Source of the DNA: Pseudomonadota bacterium
GTDB taxonomy: Bacteria; Desulfobacterota; Desulfobulbia; Desulfobulbales; JAHJIY01
DNA length: 64,000 nucleotides
Direction: 5' to 3'
Assembly: GCA_018823175.1 (NCBI GenBank)
Contig: JAHJIY010000085.1
Location: 1 to 64,000, forward strand
In this document: positions 30,372 to 48,140 of the stretch, in pieces
Layout of the letters: each line of letters starts with the position of its first letter
Position numbering within the stretch: the first letter of the stretch is position 1
Notes under the pieces: model-generated
What the model saw: the letters and a program-made list of their open reading frames with translations, nothing else
What the model was told of the DNA's origin: nothing
Databases searched by the model: none
Program-made: the position numbers and the translations under genes

Positions 30372-32034
30372 TTACTTTAACCCCGAATTCCTCTCTGATT
30401 TTCTGCCAAATTTCCTGGTTGATTGAAATATTGGCTATTGTTTTAAGTTTATCAATATATTCCTTTTTAATTATATCAGATTTTCCTTTTTTAATTTTTT
30501 TAGAAATTTCAGTTGAAACTTTTTCAAGAGGAAGGGATCTGCCCTGGATCTGGTTAATCATTTTGACCATGGCATATCCGGCATTATGAACAAAAGGAGG
30601 ACTGACTTCGCCTTTGACAAGTTTTTTGAACTCCAGTTGCAGGTTCTCCGGCAGCTTTTCAAGGGGTTCTTGCTTAATCTCGAGGTCTTCACTGTAATAT
30701 TTTTTGGCCAAATCAAAAAAGTCTCCCCCCTGGATAATTGAGGCCCATACTTTGCTGACCAGGTTTTCCTCACCGGTCAACATGGCGTAATTGATCACAG
30801 TAGGCATGGAATATTGAGCCTTGTTTGCTTGGTAATACTGGTCAATTTCCTCATTTGAAATTTGAACCTGAGAAAGCAAACTACTTTCGAGTTCTGCCTT
30901 AAGGCGGTTGCCCTGGTAGAACTCATAAATCCACTTGAGAGGCGGATTTTTTTCGTAATGTCTGTTCATTGATTCCAAGGAAATAAGGGTATCGTACACT
31001 GCGTTGAATAATATTGTTTTTTTGAGTTCTTCCAAATTGATTGTTTTGTCTATGCCGTACCTGTTTTGATAAGTCCAGTCGTTACTGATGACTCTTATCA
31101 TGTCATCAACTGTAATCCCCGTTTCATTTTCAGTCATGGTGACAACTTTTTTGTCTAAAAACTCAGAGGAATAGTTACGGGCCTTTGGGTCAATTTTGGC
31201 CAAGAGGTCTTCATCGATCTGCACATTATATTTCTTCTCAAGACGTTCAATTAGTTTCTGGGATAAATCGTTGGTAGCTTTCTTTACCAGTTCGTGTTGG
31301 CACAACTTTTGTTTTTCTGCGAAATCATCATCCGGGGGTATTAATTGTTCATGCAATCTGAGAAAAATGAATTTGCCGTCGTCCTCGAAAGGTTCCGCCA
31401 CATACCCTGGTTTAAGTTTGCGCAAAACAGAAAGCCAATTTTTTTTGTTTTTCTTGGAGCTGAGTGACTCTGGCAGAACCTGTATCTGTTCAAAGGATAT
31501 TGGCCCGCCATTTTCCGGTAAAATACCTTTCTGGTCGGTGAACGGGAGGTGTCCTGCCGGCGAACCGTTATACTGTTGCATTTCGTTAAAGGCCTTCATG
31601 GCGTCAGTCTGGTTATTATAGGTTAGGGCCTGAATACGCCAGATAGGGGTATAGTTTTCCTGGTAAAAATCTTTGATATCCTGTGCGCTGATTTTTATTT
31701 TAGAGTCGATCTCTTCATTTTTTAACAACATCATGTTTCGGACTGAAAGGAAGATCTTTAATTTTCTTTGGTAGGATGGAAGATTGTATAATTCTCTTTC
31801 CTTAGCCTGGTTGACCATCAGGTTCCACTCGATGAATGAGTCTGGGGTTTCGGGGAAAGGGGTCTCTTTTTCCTTCCAGTTTTGCCACCAATGGCGGAAA
31901 TCATCGGCCGTAAGGTCCTGGCCGTTGATCGAGGCTAAAGGTTTTTCCTGCCCAAACCATGCGCTGGCATTATGGCCGGACAATAATATTATTAACAGGC
32001 AAAAAGAGATCGGTTTAATTATTTTCCAACGCAT
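30361..32034 (-). CDS. PpiC-type periplasmic peptidyl-prolyl isomerase
   Basis: A 557-residue SurA/PpiD-like protein with a signal peptide (about 1-25, ending NASA). A SurA-type N-terminal helical region starts LASINGQDLTADDFRHWW. Parvulin-like segments are seen at about 120-210 (TPIWRIQALTYNNQTDAMKAF) and 400-480 (VINYAMLTGEENLVSKVWASI ... KLPENLQLEFKKLVKGEVSPPF). It probably chaperones the neighbouring outer-membrane or exported cytochromes, as it is made from the same message and overlaps genes on both sides (16 bp upstream, 11 bp downstream). Confidence 0.8.
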   Translation of the reverse strand: MRWKIIKPISFCLLIILLSGHNASAWFGQEKPLASINGQDLTADDFRHWWQNWKEKETPFPETPDSFIEWNLMVNQAKERELYNLPSYQRKLKIFLSVRNMMLLKNEEIDSKIKISAQDIKDFYQENYTPIWRIQALTYNNQTDAMKAFNEMQQYNGSPAGHLPFTDQKGILPENGGPISFEQIQVLPESLSSKKNKKNWLSVLRKLKPGYVAEPFEDDGKFIFLRLHEQLIPPDDDFAEKQKLCQHELVKKATNDLSQKLIERLEKKYNVQIDEDLLAKIDPKARNYSSEFLDKKVVTMTENETGITVDDMIRVISNDWTYQNRYGIDKTINLEELKKTILFNAVYDTLISLESMNRHYEKNPPLKWIYEFYQGNRLKAELESSLLSQVQISNEEIDQYYQANKAQYSMPTVINYAMLTGEENLVSKVWASIIQGGDFFDLAKKYYSEDLEIKQEPLEKLPENLQLEFKKLVKGEVSPPFVHNAGYAMVKMINQIQGRSLPLEKVSTEISKKIKKGKSDIIKKEYIDKLKTIANISINQEIWQKIREEFGVKVNEK

Positions 32035-32648
32035 ATTTTTAATCCTTTATTAATCCAAGCTGTAATGATTTCCTGTGAAACAACTTTTGACAGTTCTGCT
32101 ATGGTATTTATTTTGCCGAAATGAAGAAATTTCTGGTATTGCTTTGCTTCCCTTCGATGGTAGGTACTCCATAAGGTCCGACCGGAATCGGTTTCGATTA
32201 TCCGGAGAATGACGGCCAGGGAAACAGGTTGTCGACCTCGTTGCTCATCGTTACCACTCATTTCAATAATAGTCCCGCTGACCACAATTTTTGAGCCTAA
32301 CCGTCCTCCTAACGATCTTACTTGTTCGAGAGAAGTTTGTTGTCCGATAAATACTCTCATTTGTCTTAATATTTTGCGAACATCACCTTCCTGAGAGATT
32401 AAATAATTACCGGTGGACAAAAGCTCTGAGGTGAAGATCCGGTAAAACAGGGTGTCTGCGGTTTTGCTTTCTGTTTGATTGATGAACGGCAATACGGTTA
32501 TCTGGCAGATCTGTCCTTCATCCGGTAAAGCGGCAAGTTGCAAAACGGTTGGTGACTCCTTGAAAGAGCAACCGGTGGCAATCATATGGAGTAAGGTAAT
32601 TAGTATTAATTGCCGCCAATAATTATTAATTTTAAATTTTTTCATCAA
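32019..32648 (-). CDS. CsgG/LpoB-like lipoprotein
   Basis: A 209-residue predicted lipoprotein (lipobox ATGC at about 24-27). The mature part has the alpha/beta pattern of the CsgG/LpoB/GNA1162 group: ICQITVLPFINQTESKTADTLFYRIFTSELLSTGNYLISQE, then LGSKIVVSGTIIEM and a strand with a DSGRTLWS turn. CsgG itself forms the curli export pore, while LpoB is a regulator, so function cannot be read from fold alone. It starts the gene run isomerase, 26-heme, 16-heme. A weak promoter (TTAACA, 19 nt, TATAAT) lies in the 94-bp gap upstream. Confidence 0.65.
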   Translation of the reverse strand: MMKKFKINNYWRQLILITLLHMIATGCSFKESPTVLQLAALPDEGQICQITVLPFINQTESKTADTLFYRIFTSELLSTGNYLISQEGDVRKILRQMRVFIGQQTSLEQVRSLGGRLGSKIVVSGTIIEMSGNDEQRGRQPVSLAVILRIIETDSGRTLWSTYHRREAKQYQKFLHFGKINTIAELSKVVSQEIITAWINKGLKICVGK

Positions 32649-32742: not shown

Positions 32743-34359
32743 TTAAAATTCATCTAGCCAAGCCGGACCGGAACTTGTCTTTTCACCTTCTTTTACTTCA
32801 GGCGCAACTAATGACTGGATATCTTTAATTACCTGCCTTGATTGGTTGCCTAGGACATCACGCATCAAAATGATGCATTCAACTTTTCTGGTTTCACCAG
32901 CCAGTGGATCGATAATATCAGTCTGGATTGAATAGTCCTCATTTTCCGCTACTTTGACAATGTTTGGCCCACTGTTTTCCGCCACTTTAACAATATTTTG
33001 GCTATTATCTTTGGCGACCTTGATTACGTTATTGGGAAGCTGGATATCCATTCTAAAAGGTAAATTATCACCTTCCGCTACTTTTATTATTTCTCCGTTT
33101 TCGCCGCGGACCTCCATGCGCCAGAATGCGATGGGCACCTGTCCCTCGTGGTTTAAGTCAACAATCATGTCCCTCCCAAGATTTTTTGCTTCCAGCACCA
33201 TAGCTGGCGGGGTGCGGGCAATTGCGACCTGTTGCGATGTCACCGACAAATTCTCTGCGCGATCCCAGACCTGGAGCATAATTTCGTATATTCCTTCTTC
33301 TGATAGCCAGCCGCTTTTTTTGCGTCCGTTCCAGACAAACTGCCGGGGCAGATTTCCGTAACCGCTTCGGCTCATCTGTTCTTCGCCTGCCTCATCTTCA
33401 ATGGTTATTTTCCAACGGGCCACTGGCTCACGTTTGATCATGTGGGGAAGAATAATAACCTGGTCCCGAAAGGCCACGGTTCCTTCTAGACGGACTCCTT
33501 TAAGTTCCAGCACCAGTTTAGGTGGTGCACTGTCAACATTGTAGGCCCCCAGAAAAGTCACTTTTTTATTACCTGATGGCCAATCGACAACCATAGTTAC
33601 CGGGTAGCGGCCATCTCGGTCGGAGACGACCCAGTTGGATTCGTAAGAGTATCCGTCTGGTGATTGACGTGCCAGGTGGACCCGGCCTCCCACCTTGAAA
33701 AAGAGACGAGGCATATCCGTTTCCGACCATTTGGTGCGCAGGCTGACTGAGCATGAAACCTGGTCGCCACGACGGACATGGGAGGGACGCAGGTCTACGT
33801 ATTCGATTTCCAGTGGTGGTTGTTGGCTGACGATAAACTCAAGTTCATCAGGCCAATCTTCCAAAACTCTTTGGGCCAGAAGGGGTACTAGTCCTTCTGG
33901 CGGGCCACTATCGCCAATTCCAAGCAGGCTAATTATGTCGTCCTGGCATAGGCCACCTGAAGCGGACCATAAAGTCCTGCTGTCGTCTGATCTTGCCAGG
34001 TAAAGGGTAAGTCCCAAGGAAGGGTCTTTAAGGTTCTGGCCCAGGGTTATAGTGCCGAAAAGCACTAAGTCAGCTCCGAGCTCATCTTTAGCCTTAATAA
34101 TGTGCTTGGTGTCGAGAAAGCCAAGCCAGCGCATCCTGTTTCTGACCATAAAGGCCTCGACGTTTTCATTACTGATCACATCAAGTCCTTTTTCCGATAG
34201 TTCCCAGGCAAGATAATCGGTTACTTCCTTATTGATCCCGTTTGAACCCTGGCTCAGGTCTTCAATGGGGATAATGGCCACGGTCATGGCTTGACTGATC
34301 GAAACATTAACCAAAAAATAGAGGATGAGACTGCAATAAAATAAATATTTAGTAAACAT
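32743..34359 (-). CDS. CsgG-like domain protein with Ig-like domains and 11-residue repeats
   Basis: The frame is open from GTG 34380. ATG at 34359 with GAGGT 7 nt upstream is preferred and gives a clean signal peptide (MFTKYLFYCSLILYFL ... SQA). Residues about 25-170 have the CsgG/TolB-N-like fold (TVAIIPIEDLSQGSNGINKE, ADLVLFGTITLGQ, SRTLWSASGG). The remainder is beta-rich with Ig-like pieces (FVWNGRKKSGWLSEEGIYEIMLQVWDRA, FlgD-like turn). At 32938-33090 lies a short array of four copies of an 11-residue unit with core [IV]KVA[EK]. There is no lipobox, so the protein is probably periplasmic or surface-exposed. Confidence 0.6.
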   Translation of the reverse strand: MFTKYLFYCSLILYFLVNVSISQAMTVAIIPIEDLSQGSNGINKEVTDYLAWELSEKGLDVISNENVEAFMVRNRMRWLGFLDTKHIIKAKDELGADLVLFGTITLGQNLKDPSLGLTLYLARSDDSRTLWSASGGLCQDDIISLLGIGDSGPPEGLVPLLAQRVLEDWPDELEFIVSQQPPLEIEYVDLRPSHVRRGDQVSCSVSLRTKWSETDMPRLFFKVGGRVHLARQSPDGYSYESNWVVSDRDGRYPVTMVVDWPSGNKKVTFLGAYNVDSAPPKLVLELKGVRLEGTVAFRDQVIILPHMIKREPVARWKITIEDEAGEEQMSRSGYGNLPRQFVWNGRKKSGWLSEEGIYEIMLQVWDRAENLSVTSQQVAIARTPPAMVLEAKNLGRDMIVDLNHEGQVPIAFWRMEVRGENGEIIKVAEGDNLPFRMDIQLPNNVIKVAKDNSQNIVKVAENSGPNIVKVAENEDYSIQTDIIDPLAGETRKVECIILMRDVLGNQSRQVIKDIQSLVAPEVKEGEKTSSGPAWLDEF

Positions 34360-34512
34360 AAGCCTTACCTCTTTCTCCACGAAACCCGGAAAATAAAAGT
34401 GAATAGTGACAAGTTGAAAAGTTATGGCGTTATCTGATTTGACTGTTTTCTGTGTTGCTCGAAGTCTGTCGTTTACCTGGAGTCTATAACTTCACAGTTG
34501 ATACCTCGTGTT

Positions 34513-34600: not shown

Positions 34601-35182
34601 TTATTTTTTGGCTGGAATAGTTGACAGCATCTTTTTCATTAACTTAAGGGTAATATGAAATTTGTCGGTCGGCGCCAGGCCGAAAAGGCGACCTGCCATT
34701 GAATCGGCGCTCCACCTGGCGCTGGATTGCCAGATAACAACCGATGATTTGGAATCTACCAGTCTAAGGGTTACCGCCAGGTCCGGAAAGGCGATAGTCC
34801 CTTTGCGTACTTCACCCGATTCATCGATTGAACCCAATAAAAAAGCCTCTACGTTCAGTCTCTGGGCCAGACGCTTGAGGTTAAGCAGGTCAATGGGCTT
34901 GCCTGGGTCAATTACTTCTTCCATCATGACGCTATCTACGATACCCATATCAACGACATCGGATATCCCCATGGCCAGGACCTGGGTAATAGCGACGTCC
35001 CTGACCCGCTGGGCGGCATATTTGTCATCGGTATGGTTTTCAAAAGGCAGAACCACCAGCCGGTTTATCAGGTCCAGATCCACGTCTTCCCGTAAAAATG
35101 ATTGAGAAGAGAATTTCCCGCTGCAACCTCCGATTAATAAAGTAAACATTGCTATGAGCAGCACAATAGAGCACTTTCGCAT
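34601..35182 (-). CDS. CsgG/LpoB-like lipoprotein
   Basis: ATG at 35180-35182 is preferred over the track-long frame because it gives a lipoprotein signal (MRKCSIVLLIAMFTLLIGGC) and has an AAAGGGG box upstream. The mature protein of about 173 residues shows the CsgG/LpoB pattern: LVVLPFENHTDDKYAAQRV, VEAFLLGSIDESGEVRKG, VTLRLVDSKSSVVIWQSS. It is the third protein of this fold within 3.5 kb. It lies just downstream of the beta-barrel gene, suggesting an outer-membrane assembly role. Confidence 0.65.
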   Translation of the reverse strand: MRKCSIVLLIAMFTLLIGGCSGKFSSQSFLREDVDLDLINRLVVLPFENHTDDKYAAQRVRDVAITQVLAMGISDVVDMGIVDSVMMEEVIDPGKPIDLLNLKRLAQRLNVEAFLLGSIDESGEVRKGTIAFPDLAVTLRLVDSKSSVVIWQSSARWSADSMAGRLFGLAPTDKFHITLKLMKKMLSTIPAKK

Positions 35183-35251
35183 GCCTGGTACCCCTTTATC
35201 CTTTTGATTTACGGTTAATCGACTTCTCTGGTCATACAAACGAAGCCGCGG

Positions 35252-37357
35252 TTAATAGGTCGAAAATCTTGCTGTTAAAACACTTTTCAAAATTATATCT
35301 TCTTGCAAATCGTTCTTGATGTAGTTGCCGATGAATTGCATGAAAATATTGGAACTAACGGTCCAACGCAAGTTAACATCCCCCGAATGGGTGTTGACGG
35401 TTGCATGCGTTATTGAATAGCTCATACTCCCTTGAATTTTCGGGGTTATGGCCAGTACCAAACTGAGGTTGCTGGTTTCCCGTTTACTTTCGCCCCAAGT
35501 TTTTTGTCCAGAGAAGGCCAGGGAAAGAAGGTCGGAAACCCGCCAGCCCATGTTGATTGATGTTTTATAGGTGTCGGTTGTAGTTGTGCTTTGGTTATTA
35601 GTGTATTCGCCGGAAAAGGAGGTGGTTATTTGTGGATTAAGGCGGGCCGAAAAATAAAGTATGGTTGTCAATTGTTTGTTCTCTTTGCTGTCGTCTTCCG
35701 GTTTAGTTGTGGTATGAGTTGCCCGGAGCTGGGAAGAAAGGTCAGGATAAAGCTGGGCGGTGATGTTTGCTGCGAAACTATAATTCTGGGAGGTTTTCTC
35801 GTTATTCGTGTAATTGTCATTGACTGAGCCGTTTAGACCAAGGTCAAGAGTAGGTAGCAACTCTGAATTTAATCCCAAGCCATAGGATTTGATATTGGTT
35901 TCGGTATAGGATTTGATATTGGTTTCGGTATGATCTGTGTTTTTACGCCAGGAGTCGTTTACGTTAATTTGGGTTTTGAATTTAGTGGTTGGCCGCCAGG
36001 CAATGGATCCGCTTTGGTTCCGGGTCTCTACACTTGTCTCTGTTGGTTGAGATTCGGTCTGGCTCATCGTCAGATTGTAGTTTAGGCTAACTGTTTCTGT
36101 CAGTTGCAAGCCAAGGGAGGCATTGGTCTGGTTTTGGAGATTCTCGGAGGAAGTTGGAACAATAGTCCCGATGGTGCCGGTTATCTGATCAAAGGCCTCA
36201 ATTTCGGTAAAGTTGATTGTTCCAGCCCCGGGGTAGTCCAGCAAAACAAGTTTGAGATAGATTTGTTGCTGCTTCTGGACTGGAATCTCAAAACGATAGG
36301 TATTGTTTATCGGATCGGTGTTATAGATTACGGTATTGGCATCAAGAGTCTCTTGCGCAAAGTTGATGCCGTCAGTGCTTGACCACAACTGCCAATTAAA
36401 ATTATTTGGCATGGCGACGCTGATGTCCACATCCGTATAAAGGTAAATCATATCGACTTCGGCCAGATTTGTTTTCAGATCGATATTATAGTCGATCCCC
36501 GCTGGCGGGAGGGTGATTGCCGGGGTCAGCAGATCCTGGTTGGTCATGGCAACGGTAACATCGGTAAAAGTAGAACCATCACTGCTCTCAGGGTTGTCGT
36601 CAATGCTCCATCTTATTTGGGAAATCGGCTTGTTCAGCAAGGCAAAGCCACTACTGGTAATCAGAGAATCCTTGTCACTTTGACTGTTTTGCTGTTGATA
36701 AGAAAATGATGTATTGAGGCGATTGTTCCAGAATAAATGGGCGGCCGAGATTCGGGCTGAATAATTTGTGGATATCTCATCATCGTTGCTGATCATTGTA
36801 TTATCTATTTGTCGCCAGTTGCCGCTTAAATATATCTTGGCTAAAATCAGGTTCCAGTTAAGGGTGCCGCCGGCATTAGTCTGTTCTAATTCCTGGAACC
36901 GGCCGCTGGAATTTTGGCCGAAGGAGGCAGTAAGGTTAGGGGCTAATTCATTCTTCCAGGCGCTGGTCAAATAGCTGTCCCAGGAAGTGGATTTGCTATA
37001 TCCTGAGATACTGTTATCAATTTCCGTTATTGATCCGCTAAGATCAAGGTCAAACAGGTAGTTTTGAAGATTCATGGATAAGTTTGGTGATAAATTTTTG
37101 GTGGTTGCGCCGTTTTCGATCCAGGTGATGCTATAACGTATATTTTCCTGGACATTCATTAAGTCAGTGACCGGCTGTTCAAACGATGCGCTATATGACT
37201 GGCGGTATGATTGGATGAAATTATCATTGTCATCCTCATCAATATTCCAGTTACCGTTAAAGTTGAGATTGACCGCCGGTGCCGGGTTCGGAATAAGTAG
37301 GACAAAGATCATGCCCAGCGCCAGAAGGTAATATCTTTTAATGATTTGTGTTTTCAT
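35252..37357 (-). CDS. outer-membrane beta-barrel protein, candidate conduit porin
   Basis: ATG at 37357 is preferred over GTG 37396 because it gives a normal signal peptide (MKTQIIKRYYLLALGMIFVLL ... APA) and the best promoter would start RNA near 37388. The mature protein of about 675 residues alternates polar and aromatic residues in strand pairs with Asn/Thr/Ser-rich turns and ends in an aromatic residue (ARFSTY), as outer-membrane barrels do. Residues about 245-400 interrupt the pattern with a discoidin-like beta sandwich (FNWQLWSSTDGINFAQE, IYLKLVLLDYPGAGTINFTEIEAF). An 8-residue duplication (TETNIKSY twice) comes from a 24-bp perfect repeat at 35882-35929. It could hold a cytochrome in the manner of MtrB, but this is inference from context. 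Confidence 0.7.
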   Translation of the reverse strand: MKTQIIKRYYLLALGMIFVLLIPNPAPAVNLNFNGNWNIDEDDNDNFIQSYRQSYSASFEQPVTDLMNVQENIRYSITWIENGATTKNLSPNLSMNLQNYLFDLDLSGSITEIDNSISGYSKSTSWDSYLTSAWKNELAPNLTASFGQNSSGRFQELEQTNAGGTLNWNLILAKIYLSGNWRQIDNTMISNDDEISTNYSARISAAHLFWNNRLNTSFSYQQQNSQSDKDSLITSSGFALLNKPISQIRWSIDDNPESSDGSTFTDVTVAMTNQDLLTPAITLPPAGIDYNIDLKTNLAEVDMIYLYTDVDISVAMPNNFNWQLWSSTDGINFAQETLDANTVIYNTDPINNTYRFEIPVQKQQQIYLKLVLLDYPGAGTINFTEIEAFDQITGTIGTIVPTSSENLQNQTNASLGLQLTETVSLNYNLTMSQTESQPTETSVETRNQSGSIAWRPTTKFKTQINVNDSWRKNTDHTETNIKSYTETNIKSYGLGLNSELLPTLDLGLNGSVNDNYTNNEKTSQNYSFAANITAQLYPDLSSQLRATHTTTKPEDDSKENKQLTTILYFSARLNPQITTSFSGEYTNNQSTTTTDTYKTSINMGWRVSDLLSLAFSGQKTWGESKRETSNLSLVLAITPKIQGSMSYSITHATVNTHSGDVNLRWTVSSNIFMQFIGNYIKNDLQEDIILKSVLTARFSTY
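35882..35929. repeat. 24-bp in-frame tandem duplication
   Basis: Two identical 24-bp copies inside the barrel gene encode TETNIKSY twice. The unit is a multiple of three, so copy-number change would not break the frame. Confidence 0.9.
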
Positions 37358-37396
37358 CAGCTGGATAATATACTTCCCGGTTGTCCGCCAATCCAC

Positions 37397-37826: not shown

Positions 37827-39563
37827 TCAGCGACTGTGCTTGATCTGCGGGTTGTTCCGGTCATAGGTCTTGGGAGCGTGGCAGCCGACCACACACGTCC
37901 CGCCTACCTTACTCTTGGTAAAGCTGATCGGGTACGACCAGGCCCCGAACGGTACCTCATAACGAACATGCTTGCCCTGGTTGCTGGCATGGGCATCATG
38001 ACATGAGGTGCAGGTCCGGCCTTTTTTCATGTTAACGTGAAAGTAGTGCAGGTTATAGTTGCCGTCTCTGAAGTTGGTCAGGGTCGTGGTCAGTTTGGTT
38101 TTGGCGATGTCCTTGTTGTGACAGCCAAAACACAAGTCATAGTTTTCCGGTTCATAGGGACTGTAAAATTCCATCGGGAAATAGCGGGCCAGCAGTTTGG
38201 AAAACTGTGAACCGTGCACGTTATGACAGGCGGCGCAGTCACCGGTCTGAACCGGACCGTGCCGATTCTGGCTGTCGGCAATAATATCGCCGAGGTCGGT
38301 ATGGCAGGAGAGGCAGAGCTTCTCCATGGAATCCTTGAGTAGCGACCCGTAATTGGAGGAATGGGGCCGGTGACAGGCGACACATTTACCTTCGTCTACC
38401 GGCGGATGTTTAACTTTGGCGGTGTTGATCGCCGTATAGATCTCGGGAGTCGCCTCTTCATGGCAGGAGGCGCAAAGTTTCCCTCCCTCTTCGTGCAGTT
38501 GGTAAGGGGCGTCGGAACTGTGCGGGTCATGGCACTTGTTGCAATCTTCCTGGACCGGGGCGTGGATATTCTCCATGGTGAATTCAGCCTTGCGGTCTTC
38601 ATGGCATTCAAAACAAAGTTGGCCGTCCTTGGTTGGCGCGATCAGTAGACTGGCATTGGCCGAAGAGTGGGGCTGGTGACAGGCGATGCACATGCCGCTG
38701 CCCACCGGGCCATGCTGATGTTTTTTGGTAAAAATCCCGTCTTCATGGCAGTTGAAACACAAGGCGCTGATCGCCTCACCTTCCGCTTTTAACTGGAAGC
38801 GCATATTTGATTGATGGGGATCATGACAGTCGGTGCAACCTTCTTCGACCGGGGCGTGGATAACCTCTTGGTTAAATTCTTCTTTTTTGGCTTGGTGACA
38901 GACCAGACAAAGATCGCCGCCGGTGCGCTGCAGGGCCTTTGCTTCAAAGGTGCCGTGCGGGCTGTGGCAAGAGATGCAGACGCCAGCCCCGACCGGACCG
39001 TGGACATGTTTGGCCTTGCCTTTATCGGTATGACATTCCCCGGTGGTGCAGTCGGCCCGGGCCGGGATTATTTTTTTAAAATCGTATTCCCCCTTCTTTA
39101 ATCGATGGCAATCCTGGCAATTAAGGGTTGAGGGTTTCTGGTGAACATAAAATCTTTTAAAATCCTTGGGCGGCGCATTTTTCTTCTGGTCCGGGGTGTA
39201 AAAGACCCGCACCGAGGTCTGCAGCTTGTCGCTGCCTATTTTTATCGTGTTCAGCCCATTTTTTAAGCTGACCGGCGCGCCGAAAACTCCGCCTTCATTA
39301 ACTGTGGCCCGGTCATTTTTGAGCTTGGTGTCCACTCCCTTGAGCTCAATGTTATCTATTTTGATCCCCTGGACGGTGCCGGCCAGAAACAGGTTTTTTT
39401 CGGTTACCCACACGGCGTCTGGCGGGGAGACTATTCGGATGGCCGGGTCGGCGGCCAGAGCCGGCCGGCTAAAGATTAAAGCGCCGTTAACGACGGATAT
39501 AAACAGAAGCAATAGTAGCCGGATATCATGACATCTCATCCTTTTCTTCCCCATCATGGTCAT
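37827..39563 (-). CDS. c-type cytochrome with 14 CXXCH, one CX4CH and one CX3CH
   Basis: A 578-residue exported cytochrome. A signal peptide (about 1-37, ending PALA) is followed by an Ig-like non-heme domain (about 39-125; IRIVSPPDAVWVTEKNLFLAG). Fourteen canonical motifs follow in doubled units. The second site from the N-terminus is CTTGECH (four residues between cysteines) and the last is CVVGCH (three residues). CX4CH is known from cytochrome c3 families, while CX3CH is uncommon. The decaheme protein at 45882-47093 has a similar N-terminal domain. The first ATG lies 3 nt after AAGGAG, and the third codon ATG is an equally good start. Confidence 0.9.
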   Translation of the reverse strand: MTMMGKKRMRCHDIRLLLLLFISVVNGALIFSRPALAADPAIRIVSPPDAVWVTEKNLFLAGTVQGIKIDNIELKGVDTKLKNDRATVNEGGVFGAPVSLKNGLNTIKIGSDKLQTSVRVFYTPDQKKNAPPKDFKRFYVHQKPSTLNCQDCHRLKKGEYDFKKIIPARADCTTGECHTDKGKAKHVHGPVGAGVCISCHSPHGTFEAKALQRTGGDLCLVCHQAKKEEFNQEVIHAPVEEGCTDCHDPHQSNMRFQLKAEGEAISALCFNCHEDGIFTKKHQHGPVGSGMCIACHQPHSSANASLLIAPTKDGQLCFECHEDRKAEFTMENIHAPVQEDCNKCHDPHSSDAPYQLHEEGGKLCASCHEEATPEIYTAINTAKVKHPPVDEGKCVACHRPHSSNYGSLLKDSMEKLCLSCHTDLGDIIADSQNRHGPVQTGDCAACHNVHGSQFSKLLARYFPMEFYSPYEPENYDLCFGCHNKDIAKTKLTTTLTNFRDGNYNLHYFHVNMKKGRTCTSCHDAHASNQGKHVRYEVPFGAWSYPISFTKSKVGGTCVVGCHAPKTYDRNNPQIKHSR

Positions 39564-39783: not shown

Positions 39784-39828
39784 TACATCCCATCTAATCA
39801 TGCTTCAAGCATGATTAGATGGGATGTA
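39784..39828. repeat. 45-bp palindrome
   Basis: Arms of 22 bp (39784-39805 and 39807-39828) are perfect reverse complements around one C. There is no T-run on either side, so it is not a standard terminator. Such a long palindrome can extrude as a cruciform. Confidence 0.95.
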
Positions 39829-39915
39829 GAGTGCTTCTTAATTATTTGTCTGCCTGGGGAAATTCTTCTGGAACGAGAATCGGGTAAAAATGGATGGTCT
39901 TGTTGATAAATCAAC

Positions 39916-39955
39916 AAAAAAAGCGCTGAACCGAAAATCGGTCAGCGCTTTTTTT
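39916..39955 (-). terminator. intrinsic terminator of OmcS-like gene A
   Basis: Stem GCGCTG/CAGCGC, a one-base bulge, then ACCGA/TCGGT with an AAA loop. Seven A on the left give a T-run on the minus strand. It lies 68 bp after the OmcS-like stop codon. Confidence 0.92.
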
Positions 39956-39966
39956 GTTTCTCAGGC

Positions 39967-40022: not shown

Positions 40023-41057
40023 TTATTTTGAGGTATGACAGATAAAGCAACCAGCCTCAGCAGAACCGACTGTATCATCACCTGGAAATGCAGCAAGAGT
40101 GGTTCCGGCGTTCATGTTAGCAAGATTCCAACGCAGGAGATCCGGGTAGGCTGAACCATGGGACATATGGCAGCTGAGACAGATTACCTGACCGGTCGTG
40201 GTGTTGGTGTTGGTCATTTCGCCCAGAGGAATGGCTGGGTTATAAACGCCACCATTGGCGTCATTATATGCTTCACCAGTCAGGTTGGCATTTACTGGGA
40301 TATCGGTTGGATGCCGCTTCCAGATCTGAGCAGATCCAGCACCAGCGACACTCAATTGGTTTGACGAGCCATGGAAATTGCCGTGACATACGCCGCAAAC
40401 GGCTGCGCCCATACCGTTAGTTATATCAGCTGAATAACGACTAGAGCCGACAACTTCGGCTGCATCGTATCCGTAGTTAATGCCTTCAGTGCCGTCGACA
40501 AATACTGCGGAACCTTGTACTTCAAGGAAGCGGTAGCTGCCACCGTTTGTTGTGCCAACGGTATTTAATACAGTATTTGCGTTGGAATGATGAGCGCCAA
40601 CTGCATTATGACAACCGAGAGCGCCACTACAGGACAGAGTATTTGCAGCAACAGCTCCACCTGGTGAAACGGTCAAAGTGCCGTCATTGGACTGTTTACT
40701 AACGGCAATTAGATCGGCCACATTGTGAGTTTGATTTGAAGTATTTGAAAAATAGCCACCGGCCAATGGATTTGCAATGTCGTTAACCTGTGGTGCTGCT
40801 GGGCCGTTTGCGCCACTTGAGTAACCAGTGGCGGTGTTTGGGTCCGCGTTATGCGCATGGCAACCAACGCAGTTATTGGCCAATAACAGCTGGTTGTTAC
40901 CGGTGGTATAAGCAACCCCACCGACTGATGCTCCGTCCTGGCTGTTGTGCATGGTGTGACAGCCGCTGCATGGTCCACCCAAGGCAAAAACGGTGGCTGG
41001 CAATGCCAGGGCCGCAGTTGCAAGGGCAGCGATGATTGTTCTTTTTACTGTAATCAT
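40023..41057 (-). CDS. OmcS-like hexaheme cytochrome, candidate nanowire subunit (copy A)
   Basis: A 344-residue exported cytochrome with a signal peptide cleaved near VFA-LGG. The heme order is CSGCHTMHNS, CVGCH, CSGALGCH (five residues between cysteines), CGVCHGNFHGS, CLSCHMSHGS and CFICHTSK at the C-terminus. Spacing and flanks match copy B at 25132-26184 and Geobacter OmcS, including an RHP segment between hemes 4 and 5 (WKRHPTDIP). It has its own promoter, an AGGAGG ribosome site, two 3' hairpins and no co-transcribed gene, as expected for a highly made structural protein. It is the stronger candidate for the major filament subunit. Confidence 0.87.
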   Translation of the reverse strand: MITVKRTIIAALATAALALPATVFALGGPCSGCHTMHNSQDGASVGGVAYTTGNNQLLLANNCVGCHAHNADPNTATGYSSGANGPAAPQVNDIANPLAGGYFSNTSNQTHNVADLIAVSKQSNDGTLTVSPGGAVAANTLSCSGALGCHNAVGAHHSNANTVLNTVGTTNGGSYRFLEVQGSAVFVDGTEGINYGYDAAEVVGSSRYSADITNGMGAAVCGVCHGNFHGSSNQLSVAGAGSAQIWKRHPTDIPVNANLTGEAYNDANGGVYNPAIPLGEMTNTNTTTGQVICLSCHMSHGSAYPDLLRWNLANMNAGTTLAAFPGDDTVGSAEAGCFICHTSK

Positions 41058-41368: not shown

Positions 41369-42091
41369 TTAGATATTTTCTCCATTTAATTTATCGAGCA
41401 AAGCTTTCGAGATTTCCTGGAGCAGGGTAGCAACTAATTTTTGGGGCTGCGGGTCGTTTTTGATCGGTCGGCCGATCACCAGATGATCAGCTCCGTTGAT
41501 TATGGCCTGGCGGGCAGTGGTCACCCGGACCTGATCGGCCCGGGCGCTGCCGGCCGGGCGCACTCCTGGAGTGACAATGGTGAAATCGGTGCCCAGATGG
41601 CGGCGGAGCATGGCCGCCTCCTGGGCCGAGGCCACAATCCCGTCACTGCCTAATGCCAGGGCCTGGCGGGCCCTTTCCAGTACCAGTTCGGTCAGGGGAA
41701 TGGTGATTCCCATCCGGCGCAGATCGTTTTGGTCAAAGCTGGTGAGGACGGTCACCGCCAGAATCTGCAGCTCTTTGCGGTCGCGGAGGGCGGCGGCAAT
41801 CATCGGTTCGTTGCCGTGCACAGTGGCGAAGGTGATGCCACGTTCGGTAAGCTGCTGGACCGCAAGGTGGACTGTTTCCGGAATATCAAAAAATTTGAGG
41901 TCGACCATCACCTTGTTGCCGCGTCTGATGATTGCGTCAATTACCGGAAAACCGCCGGCCAGAAAGAGCTGCAGGCCGACCTTGAAAAATTTGATTTGGG
42001 CATCTAGCCTTGCCACCCAGTCCAGAGCAGTTTCGGCCTGGGCAAAATCCAGGGCAAAGATAATTCTTTCGTTTAAAGGAATATTTTTCAT
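41369..42091 (-). CDS. pyrF: orotidine-5'-phosphate decarboxylase
   Basis: A 240-residue TIM-barrel enzyme for the last step of UMP synthesis. It has IIFALDFAQ with the substrate Asp, the catalytic DLKFFDIPET motif (Asp-x-Lys-x-x-Asp-Ile) and the phosphate-binding TPGVRPAG and IGRPIKN segments. It sits 34 bp after the TMTC-like gene, at the end of a run of electron-transfer genes with which it has no known link. Confidence 0.96.
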   Translation of the reverse strand: MKNIPLNERIIFALDFAQAETALDWVARLDAQIKFFKVGLQLFLAGGFPVIDAIIRRGNKVMVDLKFFDIPETVHLAVQQLTERGITFATVHGNEPMIAAALRDRKELQILAVTVLTSFDQNDLRRMGITIPLTELVLERARQALALGSDGIVASAQEAAMLRRHLGTDFTIVTPGVRPAGSARADQVRVTTARQAIINGADHLVIGRPIKNDPQPQKLVATLLQEISKALLDKLNGENI

Positions 42092-42125
42092 CGGTTAGGG
42101 TAAATCTCCGGGGTTTGATTTGTTA

Positions 42126-44042
42126 TTATTGTATTTTGCGCAATAATTGTTGTCGGTATCGGGTCATCGCCTCGCGGCCCATATCCATATTGTTGCAGAT
42201 CAGGGCCTGGTCCAGGGCGGCGATCGCGGCCGGAATTTGATTTTGGCCGGCCAGGGCAAAGGCCAGCCTTTGATAGAGCCGACCATCGCGCGGGTCAAGA
42301 TTGAGCCCTTGACGGAATGATTTTTCCGCCAGTTGGTGGCGACCAAGCAGGCCAAAAACCACCCCCTGATTAAGCCAGGGATCAACCAGTAAAGGGTCGA
42401 ACTGGATCGCGGCGGCCGCCTCGGTCAGGGCCCGGGGCAGGTCGTCTAATTTTATGTAAATTATCGCCAGGTTGTTGTGAATTTTGGCCGGCGACACATT
42501 GGGGTGACCCAGCGCCTGTTCAAAGCAGTTTTTGGCCTCGGTCAAAAGGTTAAGTCTTTCATAGGACCGACCCAGATTAAGCCAGGGCGTGCCATTTTTG
42601 TGGTCAAGCCTGATCGCCTCGCGCAGGATGGAGATTGCCTTGAGGTGATTGCCGGCCATCTCATGGGCCCGGCCCAGATTGGCATATCCCCGGCCCAGGT
42701 TGGGGGATTTTTTTACCACATCCGACCAGAGGCTGATCTCACTGGCCCAGACCTTATTACGCTGCCAGGTGCCCAGGCAAAGAAACATGATCACCAGTGC
42801 AAAAAAGAGACGCCGCAAGATTTGACGTTGGGCAAAAATCTGGGCCAGTCCGACCACTCCGGCCAGGATCAGCATAGTGGAAGGCAGATAAAGCCGATGT
42901 TCAAAGATCAACTCCAACGGAAGGATGGTTGACTCAATGGCCAGATTGGCCAGAAACCAGAAAAGACCGAAGGACAGAAGTTTATGCCGCTTAAACAGGT
43001 ATGCGGTTAAGACCAGTAGGCCGATGATCCCCAGGAGGGCCAGTAAGGTCTGGGGCGGCGCCAGCAGGGAGTGAGAAATCTGGTAATCGTAGGCCAGATT
43101 CAGACGGGAAGGTAGGGGCAGTAAGATCAGGCCCAGATAATGAAAGATGATTCTGCTCTCGGTTAACAGCCGCTCCAGCATAGTGAAATCCCTGCCCCCG
43201 AAACCATGAGTAATCGCGGTAAATGGATTTGTGCCCAGGTAAAGCCAACCGACTACATATAAGACAACAAAAGTGATGAGCAGGGACGGGACTATTATTT
43301 TATAATCAGTTTTTTTTGCCTGGTTTCGAAGAAAATAAAACTCATAGGCCGGAATGATCAGAACCAGCATGGCGCTGTTTTCCTTGCTGAGCATGGCCGC
43401 CAGGCCGCAGAGCAGGCTGCCGGTCCACCAGAGATATGAGCGGATGGGGAAAAAGGTGGCAACCGGGAAGGGATGTTTTTGTTTTTCTGGTAATGACCGA
43501 CAAGCAAGAAAGGCAAGGCGCCCTCGGACATAACAGAGCAGGGCGGCCAGATAAAAAAAGGCGGCCATACTGGTCATCCGCTGGACCAGATAGGTTACGG
43601 CATTGGTCTGCAGCGGATGGACCGCCCAGAGCAGAGCGGCAATTAACGAGAGTTCCATCGCCGCCCGGGGTTTAAAGTCGATCTGAGGTAAGATTAAGGT
43701 GGTAAAAGAAAGGCCATAGAGCAGAAAGGCGGTCAGTAAATGGATCGCGAGATTGACCAGGTGATAACCAAAAACTTCGTAGCCATGAAAATAATAGTTG
43801 AGGCCGAAACTCAAGTTCGGCAACCAGCGGTGTTTAAGTGGGCTCCTGGTCGTTAGTTGGTGCAAAGAGTTCCAAGATAATTTATTGATCCGCAGGGCGT
43901 GATTCTCGGTAATATTTTGTTCATCATCAAAGCTGAACGGAGTCTGAAAAGAGTTGGCATAGGTCAGAGTTGTTAAGATGAGCAGGACTAAGGCCGGCAG
44001 TAAAAACAGATGAATTAAATTTTCAGACTTGTGGATCTTCAT
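42126..44042 (-). CDS. TMTC-like GT-C glycosyltransferase with TPR tail (copy A)
   Basis: A 638-residue membrane protein. The first loop carries the Asp pair in FSFDDEQNI (about 37-45), the position of the catalytic acidic motif in TMTC O-mannosyltransferases and other GT-C enzymes. About ten transmembrane segments follow to residue 425, with loops such as HGYEVFGYHLVNL and WAVHPLQTNAVTYLVQRMTS. The C-terminal 190 residues are TPR repeats (LGRGYANLGRAHEMAGNHLKA). It probably transfers a lipid-linked sugar to exported protein. Residues 71 to about 450 are nearly identical to the protein at 48699-50378. It is downstream of the NHL/cytochrome run. Confidence 0.75.
   Translation of the reverse strand: MKIHKSENLIHLFLLPALVLLILTTLTYANSFQTPFSFDDEQNITENHALRINKLSWNSLHQLTTRSPLKHRWLPNLSFGLNYYFHGYEVFGYHLVNLAIHLLTAFLLYGLSFTTLILPQIDFKPRAAMELSLIAALLWAVHPLQTNAVTYLVQRMTSMAAFFYLAALLCYVRGRLAFLACRSLPEKQKHPFPVATFFPIRSYLWWTGSLLCGLAAMLSKENSAMLVLIIPAYEFYFLRNQAKKTDYKIIVPSLLITFVVLYVVGWLYLGTNPFTAITHGFGGRDFTMLERLLTESRIIFHYLGLILLPLPSRLNLAYDYQISHSLLAPPQTLLALLGIIGLLVLTAYLFKRHKLLSFGLFWFLANLAIESTILPLELIFEHRLYLPSTMLILAGVVGLAQIFAQRQILRRLFFALVIMFLCLGTWQRNKVWASEISLWSDVVKKSPNLGRGYANLGRAHEMAGNHLKAISILREAIRLDHKNGTPWLNLGRSYERLNLLTEAKNCFEQALGHPNVSPAKIHNNLAIIYIKLDDLPRALTEAAAAIQFDPLLVDPWLNQGVVFGLLGRHQLAEKSFRQGLNLDPRDGRLYQRLAFALAGQNQIPAAIAALDQALICNNMDMGREAMTRYRQQLLRKIQ
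42685..43832 (-). repeat. inverted repeat, left copy (inside TMTC-like gene A)
   Basis: About 1.15 kb of near-identical sequence to 48918-50075 in opposite orientation. Identity starts and ends abruptly at the same protein positions. Limits are approximate because I aligned by eye. Confidence 0.8.
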
Positions 44043-44173: not shown

Positions 44174-45853
44174 TTAATTATTATGATAGAGAAACCAGCC
44201 GCCCAACAGTCCCAGGGCGGCGACTGGTCCGTAGACCCCGAGCGAAGCCAGGAGCGTCAGGTAACCTGATTTGCCGGCGGGAAAGGTGATGGTCGCGCCA
44301 ATTTCCGGGACGGCGACAATTACTTGCGGAGGATTAACGAGCGGCGGGGTCAGGAGGGTCATTTTTTTTTTCGGTGGTTCGATCTGTTTGGGTCCGATTT
44401 TGATTATCTCACCTGGTAATTCGGTGCTTTCTGCGATGAATTTAATTTGGGTCAGGACCGGGCCGGCCAGGTGAGGAGGTTTAACCGGTTTGGCCGGAGT
44501 CGGCGGACTGACCGCCGTAATCTGGGCGGCTTCGGTGTTGGCTACGGTCGGCACCAAAGCCGTTTCAGCCAGCGGCTCTTCCGGTGGGCTGATTTCCGAA
44601 ACCTGGGGCAGGGCCGGGCTTAAAACCGGACGCCTGGTTCCCATGTTCGGGTCAATTACCTGTACCCGGCGGTTAAACAGGTCGGCGACGATGACGTTCC
44701 CTTTTTGGCCGACGGCAATATTGTTCGGGTAATTGAACCAGAGCGGACCGCTACCTTGGCCTCCGAACTCGAAGATATATTTGCCGGTTAAATAATCATA
44801 ACAAATTATGGTGTGGCGCATATAGTCTACCACGTAAATCGCCTGGTGGACTTCATCAATTCCCAGGGCTAGAGGGGTGCTCAGTTTTCCTGTCGCACCT
44901 CCTTTCTCGCCAAAGGCGAGGAGAAACTCGTGTTTATCATTATAAACATAGATCCGGCTGGTTTCGGTGCTTAGCAGATAAATACGTCCTTTTTGATCAA
45001 TGACCACATCGTTCACGAAGACCGGCAGTTTTTGCTCTTTTATGCCAAGAGGTTGATCTGATTCCTTGGCGGTGGGTAGAAACTCTGCCGGCAAATTGGC
45101 CAGTTCAGCGGCAATTTCCTGGGCGGTTTGATCTTCCGGGGTGATATTGGCCTCGGGGGTCGGAGCCTTTGGTTCCGAAGCTTTTTCAGCTTTTGGCGCG
45201 CGGTAGACAATGTCGGTGGGGGTTATCCAATTAAGAAATTTGCCATTGGGGTCAAGAACCAGAACGCCCTTTGTGTTTTCCTGCTTAGCAAGTAAGATCC
45301 CACATATATAAATATTTCCTTGTTGGTTTACCGCAACGCGGGATGGATTAAAGGAAAGAACCTCAGGAATTTGATCGAAGAAGATTTCTTTTTCCAGAAA
45401 AAATGCGGCATTCAGGATCGTGATTCGTGGACGATTTTTGGGATTTTTAACGCTGGAACCTACTTGTCCTGTTCCCTGGCAAAGATAAATAGAACCTTTT
45501 TTGTCAACAAAGATCCCAGAAGGGTTAGTGATATTGCGGCCTTGGCCTAGAGAGATCTCCGGGAAATAATCGTCCCCGTAGATGGTTATGCGACCGGTGG
45601 AACTAACGACATAGGTTTCTTTTGTAGTGTAATCGTAGAATACGTCAGTCGGGATATTAATTGGCAATCCCTGATCATCGATTTTTAAGATCGTCACCAT
45701 CCGGATCGGGACCTGGTCGTCAAGCGCCAGGACAATTGACGGGCAGATGACGGCCGTAAGAAAGGCACTCAGGATGCAGAGCTGCACGGTTGATTTCCGG
45801 AGCAAGGCCAAAGGGCCTGATTTTGTATGTATATGTAATAAAGTTACTGACAT
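44174..45853 (-). CDS. NHL-repeat protein with C-terminal membrane anchor
   Basis: A 559-residue protein with an N-terminal signal/anchor (about 28-44), six NHL-type blades between about 60 and 420 (for example IFVDKKGSIYLCQGTGQVG, LALGIDEVHQAIYVVDYMRHT, NNIAVGQKGNVIVADLFNRRVQVIDP) interrupted by a charged insertion (about 215-265), a Pro/Ala-rich linker, and a final transmembrane helix (about 530-556). The C-terminal helix may anchor a periplasmic propeller in the inner membrane. It lies 28 bp after the decaheme cytochrome gene in one operon. Confidence 0.78.
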   Translation of the reverse strand: MSVTLLHIHTKSGPLALLRKSTVQLCILSAFLTAVICPSIVLALDDQVPIRMVTILKIDDQGLPINIPTDVFYDYTTKETYVVSSTGRITIYGDDYFPEISLGQGRNITNPSGIFVDKKGSIYLCQGTGQVGSSVKNPKNRPRITILNAAFFLEKEIFFDQIPEVLSFNPSRVAVNQQGNIYICGILLAKQENTKGVLVLDPNGKFLNWITPTDIVYRAPKAEKASEPKAPTPEANITPEDQTAQEIAAELANLPAEFLPTAKESDQPLGIKEQKLPVFVNDVVIDQKGRIYLLSTETSRIYVYNDKHEFLLAFGEKGGATGKLSTPLALGIDEVHQAIYVVDYMRHTIICYDYLTGKYIFEFGGQGSGPLWFNYPNNIAVGQKGNVIVADLFNRRVQVIDPNMGTRRPVLSPALPQVSEISPPEEPLAETALVPTVANTEAAQITAVSPPTPAKPVKPPHLAGPVLTQIKFIAESTELPGEIIKIGPKQIEPPKKKMTLLTPPLVNPPQVIVAVPEIGATITFPAGKSGYLTLLASLGVYGPVAALGLLGGWFLYHNN

Positions 45854-45881: not shown

Positions 45882-47093
45882 CTAGAACTTCATTTTCCCG
45901 CGATCTCCACCACTATGACACAATAGGCAGATTTGGCCGCCCCGAATGTCTTCGATCAGTAAATACTTGTAGGTTGAGCCGTGGGGATTATGACAACTGG
46001 TACAGGTAAAGGGCGAACCTTCACGGCGCGGATCTTTTGGTCCGGAAAGGGGGTGTTTCTGCACCGGGTGGTCGTAGTCCATGCCTTCCAGGGCGCCATG
46101 ACAACTGGTGCATAATTTGTTAATCGGTTCATACAACTGAAAACGATTATTGGTGGCGTGCGGGCTGTGGCAGGCCACGCAACCCTGGGCATTCAGGATT
46201 CCGTGTATGTTTGCCCGCGGGGTGTCTGTTTGAATGTATTTCTTTTTATCGGCGTGGCAGGCCACGCAGATTTTGCTTTTGCCGTCGGTCCATAACTGGT
46301 ATTGGTTTCGTTCGCCATGGGGGTCATGGCAGATCGTGCAGTCTCCGGTGCCGACCGGCCCGTGAATATGAGACATGCTGCTCCAGGCTCTTTCGTTGAC
46401 ATGACAGCGAAAGCAGAGTGACTCAATCCTGCCGGTGGGGATGACGACCTTTTCTTCTTTGCTTTTGTCTGATTGATGGCAGGAAAGACAGAAGAGGTTG
46501 GCGGATGGACTGTGGCGCCATTTCGATTCCAGCACGGTCGAGCTGTGACATGAGTAGCAGGTGGTAGAAAGCTGGCCGTAGAGGGCGCGATCTACCTGGG
46601 CCTCGGTCGGTAGTTTGTTGTCGTGGCAGATGTTACACTCTTTGGGACTGGTGGTCTCGCGGTGAAACAGGTAGGTAGATGTGCTGGAAAAGTCAACGTT
46701 TAACAGGGAGCGCAGCGGTTTAAATCGGAAGTCAAGCTCCCGGTTTACCGGCGCAATGTTGAATTTGTTGCCGCCTTTTTGCAGGGGAAGTTTGTAGTGG
46801 ACGTAATGATTGCCGTCCTTTTCCCATTTGCCGATCGGATCAAAACTGCGGCCATCGGCAGATTTCATCGAAACCTTGGTCAGGTCACCCGATTCCGTTA
46901 ATTTCAGGACCACGTGCACCACGGGATTTCTGGAATAGATTTCGCCATCGCTTTTTGGAGCCAGGACTGATATTTCACCGGCCGTGGCTGAAATAGTGAA
47001 ACCGGTAAGTGGCATCAGAAAAAAGGCCAGGACTGTCAGGTTGAAGATGATCCTGGTTGATATTGTTTTTTGATTTGGAGTTTGCTCGGTCAA
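45882..47093 (-). CDS. decaheme c-type cytochrome
   Basis: A 403-residue exported cytochrome with ten CXXCH motifs from about residue 150 on, after a signal peptide and a beta-rich non-heme domain (about 38-140; GEISVLAPKSDGEIYSRNPV) like that of the protein at 37827-39563. The heme part uses doubled motifs with CHDPHG, CHSPHA and CHNPHG. The start is TTG at 47093 with GGAGG 6 nt upstream. It sits 12 bp after the thioredoxin-fold/TPR gene and 28 bp before the NHL gene. Confidence 0.9.
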   Translation of the reverse strand: MTEQTPNQKTISTRIIFNLTVLAFFLMPLTGFTISATAGEISVLAPKSDGEIYSRNPVVHVVLKLTESGDLTKVSMKSADGRSFDPIGKWEKDGNHYVHYKLPLQKGGNKFNIAPVNRELDFRFKPLRSLLNVDFSSTSTYLFHRETTSPKECNICHDNKLPTEAQVDRALYGQLSTTCYSCHSSTVLESKWRHSPSANLFCLSCHQSDKSKEEKVVIPTGRIESLCFRCHVNERAWSSMSHIHGPVGTGDCTICHDPHGERNQYQLWTDGKSKICVACHADKKKYIQTDTPRANIHGILNAQGCVACHSPHATNNRFQLYEPINKLCTSCHGALEGMDYDHPVQKHPLSGPKDPRREGSPFTCTSCHNPHGSTYKYLLIEDIRGGQICLLCHSGGDRGKMKF

Positions 47094-47105: not shown

Positions 47106-48140
47106 TTATTTAAGCATGGATTTTTTGAAAAGTAGTTCGTAGGCGCTACGATATTCCTTGGCGGCGTCATCGATTTGTTTTTGTTCTTCAAGCAGGGTGG
47201 CCAGGATATAATGCAGGTTGGCATCCCTTGAGCTGCGCAGCATTAGAAATTTGAGATCGTCAATCGCTTCGCCCGGGTTGCCTTCTTTGGCTTTGACTCG
47301 GGCCCGGCAAATCTGACCGTCTAGTGAGTCCGGGTTGAGTTTCAGACTTTTGGCCAGAGATTCTTTGGCTAAATCAATTTTATCGATGTCAATATAAAGG
47401 CAACCCAGTTGCTCGTGGGCTTCGGACATATTCGGTTCAAATTCGACCGCTTTATTAAATTCGATAATCGCCGCGTCCGGCTGGCCCCGCTGGATCATGG
47501 TCAGGCCCATATGCATGTGGCGTTTGGCGTCTTTTTCTTCCTTGGATTTTTCGACCATTTGAGGGCGTAGCTCCTCTTCGACCTGGGCGCGGGTTTTTTC
47601 GCCCAGCATAACCTCGATTTCGCCTTTCAGTCTTTTGGGAAGGTCACGGCTGTAACCCATGCCGGCCACGACCTTGCCCTGTAGGTCGACCAGCATGATC
47701 GAAGGCATGACAAAAATGCCTAGTTCACCGTAGGCTTTACGGTCAGGATCCAGATATACCGGCATCGAAAATTCGGCGGCGGCCAGCACTTCGTCAATAA
47801 CCTCGGGGCCGTCATTTTGAATATCTATGCTCAGTAGTTGTATTTTTTTATCTTTTAAAAAAGGAGAGAGTTTTTTGATGACTTTGAGGGTGTCGATTGA
47901 ACGTTTTTTCTTGGTAGGAATATCGGCCCCCCAGAAGACCAGCATCGCGTTGTTGTTGCGTAGCTGTTCCAGGGTCATTTGCTGACTGGACTTATATTCG
48001 GTCAGGGTGACGGTAGGCAGAGGATCGCCGGGATTAACCGCCCGGAAAGGAAAAGAATTTGCTTCACCGGTACCGTTAAGGAACAAAAGAAATGAAATAA
48101 TGCCAACCACCAATGCCGACAAATGTAATCTGTTGCCCAA
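47106..48140 (-). CDS. thioredoxin-fold/TPR protein lacking the catalytic cysteines
   Basis: A 344-residue exported protein. After a signal peptide it has a TlpA/AhpC-like domain (about 36-185; GDPLPTVTLTEYKSSQQMTL, AMLVFWGADIPTKKKRS, IFVMPSIMLVDLQGKVV with the cis-Pro). The redox CXXC is replaced by GADIP, so it cannot do disulfide exchange in the usual way. Residues about 205-335 are TPR repeats. It may be a binding scaffold for apocytochromes or partners. The start is TTG with an AGGGGGG box about 7 nt upstream. It is first in the operon with the decaheme and NHL genes. Confidence 0.82.
   Translation of the reverse strand: MGNRLHLSALVVGIISFLLFLNGTGEANSFPFRAVNPGDPLPTVTLTEYKSSQQMTLEQLRNNNAMLVFWGADIPTKKKRSIDTLKVIKKLSPFLKDKKIQLLSIDIQNDGPEVIDEVLAAAEFSMPVYLDPDRKAYGELGIFVMPSIMLVDLQGKVVAGMGYSRDLPKRLKGEIEVMLGEKTRAQVEEELRPQMVEKSKEEKDAKRHMHMGLTMIQRGQPDAAIIEFNKAVEFEPNMSEAHEQLGCLYIDIDKIDLAKESLAKSLKLNPDSLDGQICRARVKAKEGNPGEAIDDLKFLMLRSSRDANLHYILATLLEEQKQIDDAAKEYRSAYELLFKKSMLK

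Follow-up and report, generated by a model that had tools for sequence, protein, structure and literature searches.

A CX5CH motif at heme 3 of an OmcS-like multiheme cytochrome is the common state of its family

The filament-forming cytochrome OmcS takes one axial ligand of its heme505 from the neighbouring subunit (PMC6584659), and among the G. sulfurreducens homologues of this protein, OmcS alone is known to form a wire (PMC12977616). What OmcS filaments do physiologically is itself a matter of dispute (PMC11077965). An eight-gene block, GSU2500-GSU2493, which lies downstream of GSU2501, has been connected with the maturation and secretion of OmcS (Shen et al. 2025, as relayed in PMC12977616). 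In syntrophic sulfate reducers, the Oet cassette combines OetABI with OmcX, an OmcS-like protein and Apc2a, and cassettes of the Oet type have been reported in Desulfobulbia, Desulfuromonadales, Geobacterales and Thermodesulfobacteria (PMC10553843). The OmcS-like family treated here and its gene cluster are likewise known, and the clade has been published (Nature 2025): in Desulfurivibrio alkaliphilus, the OmcS-like sister clade includes DA_402, DA_756 and DA_765, three members of the clade rise during growth on ferrihydrite, and its proteins are predicted to be extracellular (PMC12545173). As for c-hemes attached through widely spaced cysteines, heme 1 of OmcZ is functional with a 14-residue loop between its cysteines (PMC9473688), and the CX15CH site of MccA is a functional c-heme site that needs a dedicated attachment system (PMC7096707).

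Within the window (the whole stretch of 64,000 nt that was analyzed), an intact open reading frame of 344 aa occupies positions 40023-41057 on the minus strand, reading from 41057 to 40023; the strand had not been given in an earlier note on this DNA. This gene, here called OmcSL_B, encodes an OmcS-like c-type cytochrome with a predicted Sec-type signal peptide and six c-type heme sites, five CXXCH and one CX5CH, at positions that align with those of OmcS and in the OmcS order. The sites, all on the minus strand, are CSGCH at heme 1 (40956-40970), CVGCH at heme 2 (40857-40871), CSGALGCH at heme 3 (40608-40631, residues 143-150), CGVCH followed by H229 at heme 4 (40383-40397), CLSCH followed by H300 at heme 5 (40167-40181), and CFICH at heme 6 (40035-40049). 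Two further positions on this strand are H156-H157 (40587-40592), candidate distal ligands for the heme 3 region, and H37 of the TMH motif (40947-40949), which from the alignment is a candidate cross-subunit heme ligand. The earlier note had stated that heme order and flanks follow OmcS and that heme 3 is CX5CH rather than CXXCH, and we found both to be correct, with CHTMHNS, RHP, CLSCHMSH and a C-terminal CXXCH all in place.

The same note described the gene as standing alone, which did not hold: OmcSL_B sits in a conserved same-strand cluster of about 23 kb (25.1-48.1 kb), together with a second OmcS-like gene, OmcSL_A (25132-26184, minus strand as are the cluster genes that follow). OmcSL_A encodes 350 aa with five CXXCH motifs and CAGSRGCH, a CX5CH at heme 3 (25726-25749, coordinates counted from residue 146); it is 32% identical to OmcSL_B and matches OmcS 6ef8 at E=2e-8. 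OmcSL_A and OmcSL_B bracket three multiheme cytochromes, a porin-like protein, lipoproteins, a prolyl isomerase and an NHL propeller. From the OmcSL_B side, the genes encode a 578-aa cytochrome with 14 CXXCH (37827-39563), which adjoins OmcSL_B in relatives; a 714-aa porin-like protein conserved in position (35252-37396), a candidate OetI-type barrel by inference, with no Pfam or NCBIfam match; a 212-aa lipoprotein (34601-35239), GNA1162-like below cut-off; a secreted 545-aa protein of no family (32743-34380); a 209-aa lipoprotein (32019-32648), LpoB-like below cut-off; a 557-aa PPIC-type peptidyl-prolyl isomerase (30361-32034; PF13145, E=1e-14); a 643-aa, 26-heme cytochrome lipoprotein with the lipobox LTAC (28440-30371); a 390-aa, 16-heme cytochrome (27268-28440); and a 298-aa NHL beta-propeller (26200-27096; PF01436). 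A 489-aa YVTN-type beta-propeller (23580-25049) adjoins OmcSL_A in relatives. On the other side, a 559-aa NHL beta-propeller (44174-45853), found upstream of OmcSL_B in relatives, is accompanied by a 403-aa, 10-heme cytochrome (45882-47093) and a 344-aa redoxin-TPR protein (47106-48140). The gene order recurs in L039+L109, L060, L075 with L046, L088, L090 and others, and partly in Nitrospirota, and it often extends upstream to the NHL gene, the 10-heme cytochrome and the redoxin-TPR protein. The window differs from the relatives examined in that pyrF and the gene for a TPR membrane protein (41369-44042) are inserted between OmcSL_B and the NHL gene.

Counting both genes of the cluster, the source genome holds four OmcS-like paralogues in all; it also carries ResB and CcsA-type genes for heme attachment, as well as dsrA, from which we take the organism to be sulfur-cycling. 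Judged by the named genomes among its relatives, it probably belongs to the order Desulfobulbales. The two other paralogues (G000:C57:22976-23959, L007; G000:C93:71534-72706, L008) carry an extra heme motif ahead of heme 3 and belong to a seven-motif class. A separate secreted multiheme cytochrome in the window (22098-23426, plus strand), whose homologues adjoin OmcSL_A in relatives, has seven CXXCH and a terminal CX5CH site, CTTVPGCH.

The DNA flanking OmcSL_B bore out the near-consensus promoter proposed before: TTGACA-17-TATTAT, with TG ahead of the -10 (extended -10), lies at 41271-41243 on the minus strand and is promoter-like by an 11/12 consensus match only. The 5′ leader does not fold unusually (z -0.33), and no Rfam match to a GEMM-type or other riboswitch was found in it. 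Both of the 3′ hairpins noted earlier exist in the interval between OmcSL_B and the downstream cytochrome gene, and both fold far more strongly than shuffled sequence, but only one looks like a terminator: the hairpin at 39913-39958 (z -7.9) has a U-tract and A/T tails, while that at 39785-39827 (z -8.1), a perfect 20-bp inverted repeat with a 3-nt loop, lacks a U-tract. This palindrome may be a repeat element. OmcSL_B may form its own transcription unit within the cluster.

By phmmer, OmcS (6ef8) was the sole significant PDB match of OmcSL_B (E=3e-9), and the family profile aligned with an OmcS-group profile over 277 columns at 99.9% probability (E=1e-35, hhalign); the OmcS sequence used in comparisons is identical to 6ef8. 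OmcSL_B resembles OmcS (6EF8, 6NEF) in the order of the six heme sites, in TMHNS past heme 1, RHP, CLSCH.xH and the C-terminal CXXCH, which supports its membership of the OmcS-like hexaheme cytochromes, as a sister family of OmcS. The overall identity to OmcS is low, and none of the marks of OmcS proper, namely CX2CH at all six heme sites, a His at +3 past heme 3 and an N-terminal FH, is found in OmcSL_B. In our alignment, every protein of the OmcS group has CX2CH, a His at the third residue after it, and FH. Where OmcS has CX2CH at heme 3, OmcSL_B has CX5CH; in the heme 3 region the distal His is at +3 in OmcS and at +6/+7 (HH) in OmcSL_B, which lacks FH, has H229 instead, and is about 90 residues shorter.

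The OmcS-like fold suggested for this protein received partial support. The AlphaFold2 model of OmcSL_B has a mean pLDDT of 61.7, and with this modest-confidence model a Foldseek search of the whole PDB returned 6ef8 at probability 0.90 together with a trivial OmcE match, while VIA-align superposed the same model (pLDDT 61.7) on OmcS with Z 13.0 over 242 residues at 3.9 Å. In contrast, the model of the paralogue OmcSL_A, whose mean pLDDT of 73.5 is above that of OmcSL_B, had no PDB match. Because the OmcSL_B model is of modest pLDDT and the more confident paralogue model matches nothing, we take the models to favour an OmcS-like predicted fold without establishing it.

To the family we assigned 121 members, drawn from the window, from relatives of the window and from named genomes, with one unrelated outlier left out. 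Members were selected by the pattern C..CH.MH, by RHP and by at least five heme-like motifs; the conservation of H37 and H249 is therefore partly built in, while the heme 3 cysteines lie outside the selection. H37 aligns with H16 of OmcS, which we take to be the His that ligates the heme of the neighbouring subunit, and is invariant in the 121 members, though it falls within the selection pattern. All of the OmcS group have H2, which the OmcSL_B family lacks, whereas H229 is nearly invariant in this family and is not kept in the OmcS group. This pattern suggests an exchange of one axial ligand relative to OmcS (H2 lost, H229 gained), which agrees with a report that the heme 1 site of DA_402 is shifted (PMC12545173).

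Our preferred explanation, which we consider probable on the sequence evidence, is that OmcSL_B is a secreted, extracellular six-heme bis-His cytochrome of the sister family of OmcS, a partner of the conduit and most likely an OmcS-like polymer, with heme 3 attached via CX5CH. The protein would have its six hemes loaded by a ResB/CcsA-type system, would exit through the outer membrane with help from cluster proteins, and most likely would polymerise like OmcS into a wire in which H37 of the TMH motif ligates a heme of a neighbouring subunit. At heme 3, a loop longer by three residues would carry the first Cys, and the CH and the distal His would hold the heme in place. The wire could then exchange electrons with a 26-heme/16-heme conduit (plus the porin-like protein, isomerase, lipoproteins and NHL propellers), and electrons would pass between the cell and an external iron oxide, partner cell or electrode. 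Homology, ligand conservation, the range of heme 3 spacings with their counts and the cluster itself are demonstrated by the analysis; heme occupancy at CX5CH, filament formation and the electron acceptor are inferred. Weighing against it are the pLDDT of 61.7, the paralogue without a match, the low identity to OmcS, the axial swap, the standing of OmcS as the only known wire and the dispute over its role. A different account, in which OmcSL_B does not polymerise but is a monomeric or capping surface redox partner that docks on the conduit while another paralogue builds the wire, strikes us as rather unlikely; it draws on the four paralogues in the genome, on the Geobacter OmcS homologues without a demonstrated filament (PMC12977616), on the two OmcS-like genes per cluster, which suggest a division of labour, and on the unmatched paralogue model, but against it stand an invariant His at the position of OmcS H16, itself included in the selection pattern, and the match of the OmcSL_B model to OmcS.

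The occupancy of heme 3 that the preferred explanation supposes was judged from the family. With OmcS and the outlier removed, heme 3 had the spacing CX5CH in 90 of the 121 members, CX2CH in seven and CX8CH in one, and 23 had an extra heme motif just upstream. Within a set of 101 sequences, CX5CH was present in 78, nearly all of the form C-A-G-x-x-G-C-H-G (first G 77/78, second G 77/78, A 67/78). C143, C149 and H150 of heme 3 were invariant (121/121), H157 was kept in every member whatever the heme 3 spacing, and H156 in 119. Eleven of the twelve cysteines were invariant, the remaining one, C221, being present in 120, and the six proximal and six distal His (37, 111, 157, 229, 249 and 300) were found in 120-121 of the 121, which is the number of ligands needed by six bis-His hemes. 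An additional His, lying some 50 residues further along and shared by 92% of the family, is missing from OmcSL_B. Since the Cys/Cys/His of heme 3 are invariant and the distal His match six hemes, the CX5CH site of OmcSL_B most likely holds heme. That the six-heme stack is kept, as the earlier note proposed for the case that CX5CH holds heme, is likely, except that one axial ligand seems unlike that of OmcS. Chance or a sequencing error at CX5CH was ruled out by the 90 relatives that share it and by the invariant Cys/Cys/His.

We find it improbable that CX5CH is a disulphide or a vestigial site in a five-heme protein with heme 3 empty. No characterisation of CX5CH as a heme motif turned up in the literature searched, and the long CX15CH of MccA required a dedicated attachment system (PMC7096707); yet C143, C149, H150 and H157 do not vary among the 121 members, close orthologues and OmcS have a canonical CXXCH at the same position, and there are six conserved distal His for six hemes. 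It is highly improbable that OmcSL_B is a periplasmic multiheme electron carrier, for although its Sec signal, predicted from sequence, is no proof of export past the periplasm, it groups with the OmcS-like clade predicted to be extracellular (PMC12545173), and its cluster, with an isomerase and a porin-like gene, resembles the OmcS maturation and secretion block (PMC12977616).

The tree of the family was rooted with six OmcS-group proteins, and the heme 3 columns were left out. On this tree, four changes of heme 3 spacing suffice for the whole family. OmcSL_B falls in a clade of 12 members (SH-aLRT 98; inner branch order weak), of which six are CX2, five CX5 and one CX8, and L039 and L041, the nearest of its orthologues with a shared cluster, both have CX2CH. 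An earlier tree, in which L102 was a long-branch outlier and OmcS was represented by one row, had put the target at the base and is superseded. From the present tree and the CX2CH of L039 and L041, this clade is where spacing varies most in the sequences compared, and the state of OmcSL_B is the one that prevails in the family at large. The "expanded third heme motif" of the earlier note is thus not a change in OmcSL_B, for most of the sister family of OmcS has CX5CH, and a gene-specific expansion of heme 3 is rejected as the simplest reading by the OmcS-rooted tree, on which branch order near the target is weak. The CX8CH relative in the clade (L042:10079-11113; also L014, genome G029) reads CSGSTYAYGCH; it is a single example, with a short run of N elsewhere in the gene. 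Another relative (L106:10019-11005; also L025) has CX5CH at both heme 2 (CLGVTACH) and heme 3 (CAGATGCH).

The string "CX5CH" was found nowhere in the literature searched, where a generic count of heme motifs as CX2-5CH (PMC12545173) was the only related entry, and we found no description in the open-licence literature of family-wide CX5CH at heme 3 with CX2CH/CX8CH in near relatives. We put forward, tentatively and at slightly less than even confidence, that C-A-G-x-x-G-C-H-G is a genuine, widespread and so far undescribed c-heme motif fixed at one position of an extracellular nanowire family, and that the site has switched among CX2CH, CX5CH and CX8CH in three-residue steps, a spacing series that could tune the potential or packing of heme 3. 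Counts that admit only CXXCH score CX5CH proteins as having five hemes and can miss OmcS-type wires; PMC10553843, for one, searched by CxxCH. If the ordinary attachment system loads CX5CH, the heme motif rules for System II organisms would be widened, and close relatives with CX2CH, CX5CH and CX8CH at one site would permit a direct comparison of the effects of Cys spacing on heme attachment, potential and filament assembly.

Among the known systems, OmcZ and MccA are alike in having a functional c-heme with a long Cys spacing in a multiheme cytochrome; unlike OmcSL_B, they have spacings of 14-15 residues, they are unrelated proteins, and MccA has its own attachment system. Nearer at hand are OmcS homologues in other, Geobacter-type genomes that are 44-69% identical to OmcS, around which the neighbour genes are of the same kind and order as around OmcSL_B. 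The block beside them encodes a propeller, a 775-aa protein, a lipoprotein, a relative of the 545-aa protein, a 627-aa protein, the 26-heme and 16-heme cytochromes and an NHL protein, and from its gene number and position it would be GSU2500-GSU2493. The YVTN, lipoprotein, 545-aa, 26-heme, 16-heme and NHL genes of the OmcSL cluster have counterparts, identically ordered, in this type of block, and its prolyl isomerase has a weak match in one such block. The porin of the OmcSL cluster had no counterpart by sequence search in the blocks of the OmcS homologues, and at its porin end the cluster has an additional 14-heme cytochrome gene and OmcSL_B. The porin-like, multiheme, isomerase, lipoprotein and OmcS-like genes are all present in the OmcSL cluster in conserved order, an order also seen beside OmcS homologues in L132. 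The cluster further resembles the Oet cassette in gene content and order, and this kind of block probably corresponds to it; in both, a porin and cytochromes are joined by another two or three extracellular cytochromes. The sister clade of D. alkaliphilus belongs to the same family as OmcSL_B: the DA_402-like gene has seven plain CXXCH, whereas OmcSL_B has six sites, of which heme 3 is CX5CH, and in the genome G004, which is probably D. alkaliphilus, two genes at ~894 and ~906 kb, both with CX5CH (CAGAAGCH, CATATGCH), bracket the same kind of cluster as do OmcSL_A and OmcSL_B.
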